NCBI RefSeq assembly: GCF_009389715.1
Contig: NW_024067695.1
Span: 1,116,001 to 1,180,000, forward strand
DNA length: 64,000 bases
Direction of reading: 5' to 3'
Source of the DNA: Phoenix dactylifera
Lineage: Eukaryota; Streptophyta; Magnoliopsida; Arecales; Arecaceae
A program made the translations under genes and the position numbers. The first letter of the stretch is position 1. Every line of letters begins with the position of its first letter. The notes under the pieces are model-generated. The model made no database searches, was not told the origin of the DNA, and worked only from the letters and a program-made list of their open reading frames with translations. Positions 47,900-64,000 of the stretch are shown piece after piece.

Positions 47900-53551
<5,652 letters not shown>

Positions 53552-53624
53552 GCACAGAGAAAAGAGAAGAGAGAGAGAAGGGGGGGCGGCTGGGCTGCGC
53601 AGTGTTGGGGAGGAGGCCTAAGGA

Positions 53625-58816: not shown

Positions 58817-58819
58817 GAG

Positions 58820-60426
58820 CACTACAGTCTACAGCAAAAAGGGGCTTTGGCGACGCTTTATATGATCTTTACCGACGCTTATAAGCATCGATATTTTTCT
58901 TTCCGACGCTTTTAAAAGCGTCGCCAAAGCGTCGCTTAAGTTAAAGTGGAGAACTAAATTGCCGACGCTTTTCAAAAGCATCGACAAATATGGAAAGCTT
59001 TGCCGACGCTTTAAAGTGTTGTTAGAATTATTTTTTTTAAAAAAAAAAACCTAATTAATTTTTTTGGGAAAAAAATCTGCAGATAGTGATTAACAAGAAA
59101 TTCATTCTCCATTACAACAACATGATTCTGCTTCTTCTAATAGCACAGGAATAACAACACAGGAACAACAACATAGAAACAACAACAAATGCTCAATTTA
59201 TTGATTTTTTTTACGAATTACAATAGAAAATCTATTACAATAGGAATAGAAAGCATAATTACAAATTACAGTAGAAATGCAAACCCAGCTGCCAGCGAAA
59301 AGGCCTTCATCTTCATCTTCTTCCTTTTCGAATATCTAAAAACCCAGCTGCCAGCAAAAAGGGCAAGAAGAAAAACCCGGCGACCAACCTTCTCTACACT
59401 GATCCAAGAAAAAAAACCCCCCAAATTCTCGAGTCATTCTAGATCGGAAGCCTCTGGAATTGAAATCACTTGCTAGATCCATGCAAACAGGTAACAATTC
59501 GATCGAACACGAAATAGATCTAACAAACATCGAAATCCAAATAGAAAAAAAAGAAGAAACTGCAGGTAGAGATGAAAGAAAGAAGATAACTCACTCGACA
59601 ATTCCTCGACTTGCTTCGGAGTGAGCTTGGCGGAGAACCTGCTGGCAGCATGTGTGTAGTGCTAGATCACCGCATCCTTCGCCTTCTTCTCACTGAGGAT
59701 CACGACAAAAACACAAAAAAGATCTCGACACTGCGAATCCAAAACCCTAACCCTAGAAATCGAAAGAGGGAGAAGGGCACGGATCGAAACCTGCTGACGA
59801 CTGCGGCGAGAGTCCGAATGTGGAAGGCCTTAGCCTCCTCCTCCGGCACCTCGCCGGAGGCCTGGTCAGGGATCTTCATGGGTTCCTCCGCCATTAAAAC
59901 CGAGACCAAAAGAAAGAAGATGAAGATCGGAACCAAGAAGACGACATGGATCAATGGAGCGCCCTTCTGGATGGCGCAGAGTCATCCCCATCAAGGGAGG
60001 AAGGGCATGAAGGGGAAGAGGGCGCTGGGATGATGGCGGCTAGGTGAAGGGGTTAGGGCTTGTTCTCCACGCGCGCCAAGAAAGAGAGGGGGTTGGGTTC
60101 GGAGAGAAAAAAGGCAGGTTTGGTCTATTAGGCCTCCGACGATGCTTTAAAGCGTCGTCTTTGGGGGAGATTAGCGGATCATTAGGCCTTCGACGATGCT
60201 TTATAAAGCGTAGTTTTGGGAAAAGAAGACTCGGGAGATAATTAGGCCTCCGACGATGCTTTTAAGCATCGTAGAATTGTGACGACGCTTATAAATGTCG
60301 TTTAATCTGAATTTCTCCCGACGCTATCAAAATGCGTCGGCAAATTTTGGCACGGTGCCCAAATTACTGAAGCTTCTTTCAAGTGTCGACAGGAAAGTGT
60401 TGGGAAAACTCACTTTAGTTGTAGTG
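58820..60426. mobile_element. Non-autonomous CACTA (En/Spm) element, 1,607 bp, carrying host exons
   Basis: The left end is CACTACAGTCTACAGCAAAA and the right end, read inward, CACTACAACTAAAGTGAG. Both start with the CACTA signature, and the element is flanked by GAG on each side (58817-58819, 60427-60429), the 3-bp duplication of this superfamily. Subterminal regions (58840-59015 and 60125-60345) hold many copies of GACGCTTT/AAAGCGTC in both orientations, as expected of transposase-binding arrays. The interior carries no transposase but contains a captured piece of a host gene (59595-59954, minus strand). Confidence 0.92.
59595..59954 (-). pseudogene. Captured fragment of a subtilisin-propeptide inhibitor gene (SPI-1-like, I9)
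   Basis: Two exon-like pieces on the minus strand: 59791-59954 and 59595-59692, with donor CAG/GTTTCG, acceptor CTCAG/T and a following donor A/GTGAGT. The first encodes a signal peptide (MIHVVFLVPIFIFFLLVSV), then MAEEPMKIPDQ, and EEEAKAFHIRTLAAVV. The second encodes EKKAKDAVI, a stop (TAG at 59664-59662), HYTHAASRFSAKLTPKQVEE. The pattern FHIRTLAAVL ... ASGFSAKLTPxQV is the peptidase inhibitor I9 fold of plant subtilase propeptides and of stand-alone inhibitors such as Arabidopsis SPI-1, which also has a signal peptide. The strand carrying HIVYTE, expected before the EEEAKAF part, appears to be missing, and the C-terminal exon (PGVLQVVPS) is absent. It lies wholly inside the CACTA element. 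Confidence 0.8.
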
Positions 60427-60429
60427 GAG

Positions 60430-61389
60430 CCACATTTCTAGGGACATTCCTAGTGGCATTTCTTTTAAAAAATGACGAGCAATGTAGGAGCCACTTTGGA
60501 AATGGCAAACCTAATTTGTTAGATCTATGCTCTTAACTGATATGTAATTTATAATAAGATTGTCAACGGATCAAATCAGAATTTAACATTTCATACACAA
60601 AAAGCAAAAAAAAAAAATAATTTCTTTTTGTATTTTATCCAAGCAAACCCACTTCATTAAGAGATCATAATGTGAATAATCAATCCAAACCTCAATAAGC
60701 AAACCAAAATACCAGATATAACTATGCTATAAAGTTTAATTCTAGATTTGTATAGATATACAAGATCATATCATGAATTACTTAAATTAAATATGAGCAC
60801 AATTTTATGCTTCAAATTTACATAGTAGAAATGCCAGCATGATTGAAATTAAGATTGATCCATAAACACAAGCCGATCCTAATAGCCAATATCATGTAGA
60901 AATAGGAGAAAGTTTTCGAATTCAGGTAGTTTGGTAAGAAGCCAGCATCGCAATGCCACAGAGCCCTTCAGACGCATCAACATCTCATTCCATCCTTATG
61001 TATCCACTCACACCCCATGACTTAACTCATAAGTTCTTCACCAGCCGATACTTAAGTCCCATCGGCAATCTTTTTGTAGCTAACATTAGTAACACCATGG
61101 TCCAATTCATTTCCACAGTCACCACTGAATACACGACTTTTATAGAATTGAAAGTCCAAGTCGCCGGCATTGATAGCAACTGAGACTGGCCAGCTGGCCA
61201 CAGCCTTCAAGCGGGCTGACTCGCTATTTGCAGGGATATCTTCAAAGCCACTAATTGTCGCTGCGCTAGTGGATGCCTTGTTGGTGTTGCAAGTGCCATC
61301 TAGTGCCTAGCAAAGATGGTTACTCTCAGTTGTTAAACCTCTATTATCAAAGATGGTTATCCTTTAGAATCTTCGATATATATATTATA
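60430..61389. other. Intergenic, AT-rich
   Basis: No gene or defined repeat recognised; an A-rich run lies at 60607-60620. Confidence 0.35.
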
Positions 61390-63252: not shown

Positions 63253-63281
63253 ATCTGGTTCGAAGGAAATAAGTGGGAGCA

Positions 63282-64000
63282 ATGGCGGCTGAAGAAGGCA
63301 AGGTCAAGATTGACAGATTCGACGGCAAAGACTTTGGTTTCTGGAAGATGCAGATCGAAGATTATTTATATCAGAAGAAACTTCATCTACCTCTTGAAGG
63401 TATGAAACCGACAGATATGTCACAGGCCGACTGGGATTTAATGGATCGTCAGGCTTTGGGAGTTGTTCGCTTGACGTTGGCTCGAAACGTTGCGTTCAAC
63501 GTTTTGGAAGAGAAGACAACAGCAGGTTTGCTGAGAGCATTGTCGAATATGTATGAAAAACCCTCGGCCTCCAACAAGGTGTACCTGATGCGCCGTTTAT
63601 TCAATCTGAAGATGAGTGAAGGTTCCTCTGTTACTGATCACATCAATGAGTTCAATCTGATTACGAGCCAGTTGAGTTCGGTGGAAATCAGTTTTGAAGA
63701 TGAAGTTCGTGCCCTAATTCTTCTATCCTCCCTGCCAGAAAGTTGGGGTGCAACGGTGACAGCTGTAAGCAGTTCCTGCGGCTCAAACAAACTGAAGTTT
63801 GAGGAGGTCCGAAATCTGATACTCAGTGAAGATATCAGAAGGAGGGAGTCTGGTGTGAAATCTGGTTCGATTCTGAACACATCTGAAGGCAGAGGAAGAA
63901 CTGTGCAACGCAGTGAAAACCGTGGCAGATCGAAGTCTAAGAGGAGGAGCAAGTCTAGATCGAAAGGCGATGGCTGCTGGCATTGTGGCAAGATGGGCCA
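63282..64000 (+). mobile_element. Gag start of the Tork-like Copia element (open to window end)
   Basis: From ATG at 63282 the frame stays open to the window edge (239 codons). It reads MAAEEGKVKIDRFDGKDFGF, then EEKTTAGLLRALSNMYEKPS and LILLSSLPESW, typical of the UBN2-type gag of Tnt1/Tork elements, and reaches the CCHC knuckle start (CWHCGKMGH) at 63980. It looks whole as far as it is visible, in contrast to the other LTR elements here, so the element is probably young. The remaining pol and 3' LTR lie outside. Confidence 0.9.

Follow-up and report, generated by a model that had tools for sequence, protein, structure and literature searches.

A non-autonomous CACTA (EnSpm) element occupies positions 58820-60426 of the 64-kb stretch of DNA analyzed here (hereafter the window). 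We hold, with a probability of roughly 85%, that this Pack-CACTA serially copied pieces of host genes as DNA, spread to at least seven loci, and decayed without visible selection. The element qualifies as a Pack-CACTA in that host gene pieces lie within it, their parents lie elsewhere without element ends (the inhibitor donor on contig C1, the demethylase donor on C17, and the locus of a gene that we call B on C482), and copies are found at separate sites. This is a well-documented gene capture of a known type and not a new working gene; the stolen pieces look broken and unselected. Gene-bearing CACTA elements are already well described, and what is added here is the serial replacement of 5' pieces, all in the same orientation, at one interior bay.

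Ends of the element and its three pieces of host genes

The element starts with CACTAC and closes with GTAGTG, i.e., CACTA-type terminal inverted repeats, and a GAG target-site duplication is read on either side (58817-58819 and 60427-60429), just as the initial annotation had it. The left end (58820-59020, plus strand) combines CACTAC, a short internal duplication and subterminal GACGCTT repeats, while the right end (60130-60426, plus strand) consists of subterminal repeats and the closing GTAGTG. The subterminal repeats reported in that annotation are borne out by CGACGCTT, which has 10 exact occurrences in the whole window against 0.69 expected, nine of them lying inside the two element ends. 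It is worth mentioning that the left terminal repeat (58820-58840) reads CACTACAGTCTACAGC in the window copy versus CACTACAGC in its siblings owing to the short internal duplication, which the second haplotype also carries, plus one more C. Judged by frame length alone, no transposase gene is present: among the stop-to-stop frames that overlap the element, the longest has 147 codons and runs antisense to the cargo. Next to the left end lies an interior common to the family (59021-59375), which gave 46 raw matches in the genome, in elements or not.

Whereas a single captured gene had been proposed for this element, the inhibitor piece proved real and two more host fragments flank its exons, giving three in total. 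The inhibitor segment (59568-59967, minus strand) corresponds to a C1 gene (L009) that resembles SPI-1, the subtilisin propeptide-like inhibitor 1 of Arabidopsis (PMC11371169), and the match spans 454 donor bases with an E-value of 4e-140. Captured were exon 1 from just past the ATG (59967-59791), the whole 98-bp intron 1 (59790-59693) and exon 2 (59692-59595), followed by the donor site and opening bases of intron 2. Mismatches between the window copy and the donor amount to 17/179 in exon 1, 8/98 in intron 1, and 5/98 in exon 2. The nine copies that were read all retain GT and AG at the two ends of intron 1, as well as the GT that opens intron 2, so the two exons with splice sites predicted on the minus strand stand. 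Since intron 1 was kept, the capture took place at the DNA level; the proposal that a non-autonomous CACTA captured the gene fragment is upheld by this parent gene with matching intron sequence, as well as by the existence of related elements devoid of the exons.

The donor gene lies on another contig than the window, has three exons and is apparently intact; its first two exons read MKNTPLIRVVFLVPIFVFFLLVSVLMAEEP...HIVYVDRPETEE...IYHYTHAASGFSAKLTPKQVEELS, and the third is located about 2.7 kb downstream of them. Once joined, with the last exon joint guessed, the donor exons cover 82 of the 82 model positions of Inhibitor_I9 (E 3.9e-16). The 9.9 kb examined around this donor showed no other element sequence, and a paralogue is carried by C61 and C1785, two contigs that are 97.7% alike. 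Arabidopsis SPI-1 and the donor protein have the same layout, being short, hydrophobic at the N-terminus and equipped with a single full I9 domain; compared with SPI-1, the window copy is truncated, frame-broken and lacks both the start codon and the C-terminal part. A junction filler (59553-59567) separates the inhibitor piece from that of gene B. The junctions of the inhibitor piece share short stretches with the element, an A-run on the left and CTTC on the right, which fit template switching during gap repair, fit other routes too, and are too short to serve as proof.

Just upstream of the inhibitor piece on the minus strand, positions 59960-60037 hold a module with the 5' UTR and start codon of a JmjN-ARID-PHD-JmjC demethylase gene whose locus is on C17, with a 5-nt deletion just past the donor ATG. 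The window module is 71% identical over 83 columns, with a score of 42.8 bits where 100 shuffles reached 26.5 at most; the assignment at this 71% identity draws on better-preserved siblings. L020 and L013 score 69.8 bits each against 30.1 and 26.5, respectively, in the same control. In the lineage of L061 (C4:19.73 Mb) and its relatives, 466 bp contiguous with C17 (L067) at 86% identity sit in the same bay and comprise the 5' UTR, the ATG, and the JmjN-coding stretch, of which the window retains the 5' UTR/ATG part only. The C17 locus encodes a 460-residue frame matching JmjN, ARID, PHD, and the start of JmjC, and no element ends occur in the 4 kb examined there. C256 had been considered as the demethylase donor and was dropped, as C17 holds the long open gene with the contiguous 5' module. 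Demethylase-like fragments were also seen in L065 (1398-1673, on C256), which is frame-broken and has no match to the window element, and in L066 (976-1404, on C3); these may be a further duplicated copy or another capture.

On the other side, just downstream of the inhibitor exons, positions 59376-59552 (minus strand) correspond to the downstream part of gene B at C482 (L057), with 77% identity over 142 columns and 90% over 40. The exon-1 part of gene B is absent from the window element and present in sibling elements, where a 224-bp stretch, 91% identical to C482, continues the gene as a leader-like exon with a GTAAG donor at its end. Both halves lie in the same order in C482, about 130 bp apart, although they adjoin in the elements, and they differ in their identity to C482 (about 80% and 91%); hence the halves may stem from two separate captures. 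A paralogous stretch of gene B is found on C6. Neither Rfam nor Pfam gave gene B a name: at the Rfam gathering thresholds, L057, L058, and three other loci had no match, and no Pfam family exceeded its cut-off for one L057 frame or for six L057/L064 frames. Downstream of gene B in C482, the frames are retrotransposon-like, as judged by eye.

Copies across the genome and the probable order of capture

The search of the genome (773 Mb, 2391 contigs) led to at least nine contig copies of the inhibitor cargo, which represent at least seven independent loci; these counts are lower bounds, 40 of 786 candidates having been scored. Besides the window locus (C48/C6), the cargo was found on C437, C8, C4/C2049, C2, C1 at 26.83 Mb, and C52. 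The C6 copy (L022) has the same flanks and is 98.3% identical to the window across 3.6 kb; we count it as the second haplotype of the locus. The copies of C4 and C2049 (L020 and L021) are 99% alike. The junction filler is recognizably alike at all seven independent loci, and because of this we infer one capture followed by spread. Target-site duplications match at four of the seven inhibitor loci, L017 being mismatched and L024 and L012 being without a right end. In the wider family, matching 3-bp duplications (GAG, CAT, GCA, TCA, AAC, AGG, and AAA) flank seven of the nine loci at which both ends were located, the two that do not match being L017 and L025. Complete copies measure about 1.4-1.8 kb and are well diverged. 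When up to three mismatches were allowed, the left-end pattern retrieved 98 sites, mostly of a wider related group, versus none with the reversed control. It should also be noted that contig C11 (G000, C11:14029035-14057988) displays four related left ends in one orientation at a spacing of about 9.6 kb, perhaps as tandem repeats of a larger unit holding the element.

The order of capture becomes readable because siblings keep earlier cargo states. At two loci (L013/L014 and L015) the elements lack the inhibitor piece and hold both halves of gene B in the same bay, and in the window element the inhibitor exons occupy the place that the first exon of gene B has in these siblings. The 5-nt deletion after the demethylase ATG is shared by all seven B- and inhibitor-bearing elements that were aligned, as opposed to none of three from the demethylase lineage (L059, L061, and L062). 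The tree of the right arm agrees with an order of demethylase, gene B, and inhibitor: the bearers of B and of the inhibitor come together (97/99), and the five inhibitor bearers with right arms are grouped with values of 91/93, which are below the tool's star. In the left-arm tree, L012 and L020 are not separated from the B-bearing L013 and L015. The most probable scenario is that host pieces were copied successively and in a single orientation into the interior bay, the first being the 5' end of the demethylase gene, the second the 5' part of gene B, and the third inhibitor exons 1 and 2 at the former place of gene B exon 1. The compound element would then have spread by cut-and-paste, with a transposase presumably supplied in trans, and its copies have decayed, mostly at CpG when the number of sites is taken into account.

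Decay of the inhibitor frame and possible roles of the cargo

The signal peptide and the I9 core that had been attributed to the captured fragment survive in part. With respect to the former, the hydrophobic core was indeed captured, but no in-frame ATG precedes it in the window copy, the parental ATG lying just outside the captured stretch. A stop comes before any in-frame ATG upstream of the putative signal core in six of the nine copies, i.e., at five of the seven loci (the window and its second haplotype, L023, L017, L016, and L024). With respect to the latter, exons 1 and 2 are present, but 54 bp of exon 1 were deleted and exon 2 contains a TAG. The deletion is in frame, located at 59833/59834 (minus strand) on a direct repeat GAGGAGG of the donor, and removes donor residues around GGDAAVHIVYVDRPETEE; it is found in eight of nine copies and at six of seven loci, with 53-58 gap columns in single copies, L012 retaining the stretch. 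Its cost is the first dozen or so I9 positions, the match beginning at position 13 or 15 and not at 2. The premature TAG (59662-59664, minus strand) replaces a TAC (Tyr) of the donor, and the window peptide up to this stop yields no I9 match, let alone a complete I9 domain. The degraded L012 has an in-frame ATG of other origin and a TAA in exon 2 at the very codon of the window TAG; we count these as separate mutations because the stop codons differ.

The situation is different at the locus of L020 and L021, where the inhibitor frame can be followed back through RAVEKG, which derives from the demethylase, as far as an ATG within that gene's leader (MPSLPRWGRPRAVEKGTPLIRVVFLVP...), and meets a stop or frameshift downstream of the signal core. 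This ATG lies upstream of the demethylase's own ATG, which the 5-nt deletion has put out of frame with the inhibitor exons. At one codon L020 has CGA where the window, L023, L017, and L016 carry the TGA of CCCTTGATGG; a CpG change from CGA to TGA would explain the difference, and the demethylase-inhibitor fusion may thus have been open at birth. Among the nine copies, the joined exons are free of stops and frameshifts only in L023 and L017, with I9 E-values of 4e-7 and 7e-7, respectively, and none combines an in-frame upstream ATG with unbroken joined exons. Several single-base insertions shift the inhibitor frame of L022 relative to the window; these may be real or assembly errors.

Pairwise dN/dS values among inhibitor-bearing copies are often 0.3-0.5, from which constraint on the frame might be concluded. 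This was not borne out by a CpG-aware permutation in which the same mutation types were re-placed at random, performed on seven copies, one per independent locus (second haplotypes L022 and L021 left out), against the consensus of those seven and the donor. Exon mutations concentrate at CpG, with 37 events at 48 CpG sites versus 57 at 214 others; the permutation gave 32 synonymous events observed versus 35.6 expected (sd 3.5) and four nonsense events versus 2.0 expected, and event density is 0.36 in exons versus 0.26 in the intron. No purifying selection on the inhibitor frame was seen in this test of seven copies, and their decay fits neutrality.

What, then, might such cargo do? It is tempting to hypothesize that small or antisense RNA from the element would lower expression of the genes for the inhibitor, the demethylase, or B, given that the element resembles three donor genes, exists in several copies, and differs from the donor at so few positions of exon 2. 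The strong CpG decay is also what long methylation would leave, in line with a silenced element; yet such decay would indicate methylation of the element itself and not action on the donors, and the identity of the window copy to its donors, which ranges between 71% for the demethylase and 95% for inhibitor exon 2, leaves few long perfect stretches. We therefore regard this role, suggested by sequence resemblance, as unlikely. Quite unlikely, in our opinion, is that the interior works as an exon-exchange bay, in which a right module that stays constant, made up of subterminal repeats and the 5' UTR/start region of the demethylase gene, would give swapped-in 5' pieces a borrowed start of transcription and translation, and in which the inhibitor chimera, once open, would have yielded a chimeric protein or small RNAs acting on the donors; the fusion of L020 and L021 is still readable on its N-terminal side.

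The secreted decoy put forward in the initial annotation, i.e., a minus-strand transcript spliced and translated into a signal peptide and an I9 moiety binding subtilases, is very unlikely and finds no support in the present copies. Intact splice dinucleotides, the stop-free joined exons of L023 and L017, and the possibility that the L020/L021 fusion reaching an ATG was once open speak in its favor. They are outweighed by the want of an in-frame ATG in six copies, the exceptions L020/L021 and L012 being broken downstream, by the loss of I9 positions before about 13 in eight of nine copies, by the absence of exon 3 from the element, and by the stop of the window copy together with the lack of purifying selection. 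That an inhibitor pseudogene came first and received CACTA-like ends by chance or by later insertion is hardly credible, being contradicted by cargo and filler that are alike in elements at seven loci, four of them with matching target duplications. Equally implausible is a retrocopy captured through RNA, since all nine copies keep intron 1 with its 98 bp and the beginning of intron 2. Serial capture as DNA by a non-autonomous Pack-CACTA accordingly remains our preferred reading.

Genomic neighborhood and comparison with known systems

To the left of the element, at a distance of about 5 kb, exons matching PMR5N (E 1.9e-24) and PC-Esterase (E 6.7e-20) lie at 52771-53617 on the minus strand, in a gene that we take to be trichome-birefringence-like; the element stands upstream of the 5' end of this gene. 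To the right, a fragment of a papain-family cysteine protease (61055-61306, minus strand; Peptidase_C1, E 7.4e-13) is found at 0.6 kb, and a Copia-type gag (63273-63998, plus strand; Retrotran_gag_2, E 2.7e-27) runs off the window. Caution is warranted for the annotation of this genome, as genes annotated as I9 inhibitors or JmjN proteins can include transposon-borne fragments.

Among the listed titles and abstract starts on CACTA capture, including that of protease inhibitors, and on date palm CACTA elements, none reports this family, most subscription papers lying outside the collection that was covered. Among the systems described, the Tpn1 family of Ipomoea nil, a CACTA family and major mutagen, has a mean length of 7,081 bp (PMC5105172), to be compared with the well-diverged complete palm copies of about 1.4-1.8 kb. 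Tgm-Express1 of soybean (PMC1947982) is a CACTA element that carries parts of exons and introns from five host genes, resides in an intron and appears in host transcripts. The palm element resembles it by its exon/intron cargo and by the splice dinucleotides kept here, Tgm-Express1 having usable splice sites; unlike the intronic Tgm-Express1, the palm copy lies about 5 kb from the PMR5N/PC-Esterase exons and 0.6 kb from the papain-like fragment. The closest likeness is to Pack-CACTA, or Pack-TYPE, elements, which one report (PMC8903248) and a review (PMC13317346) characterize by non-autonomous CACTA ends, host gene fragments from multiple loci, and several copies. The palm element likewise has CACTA ends, pieces from more than one locus and several copies. 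PMC8903248 has no word starting with "palm", and its elements differ from ours in host and in cargo, the captured genes here being an I9 inhibitor and a KDM5-type demethylase. They differ further in that palm siblings preserve earlier cargo, which makes serial replacement at one bay readable. This bears on how Pack-type elements acquire DNA, by replacement at a fixed bay as opposed to fusion by tandem insertion.
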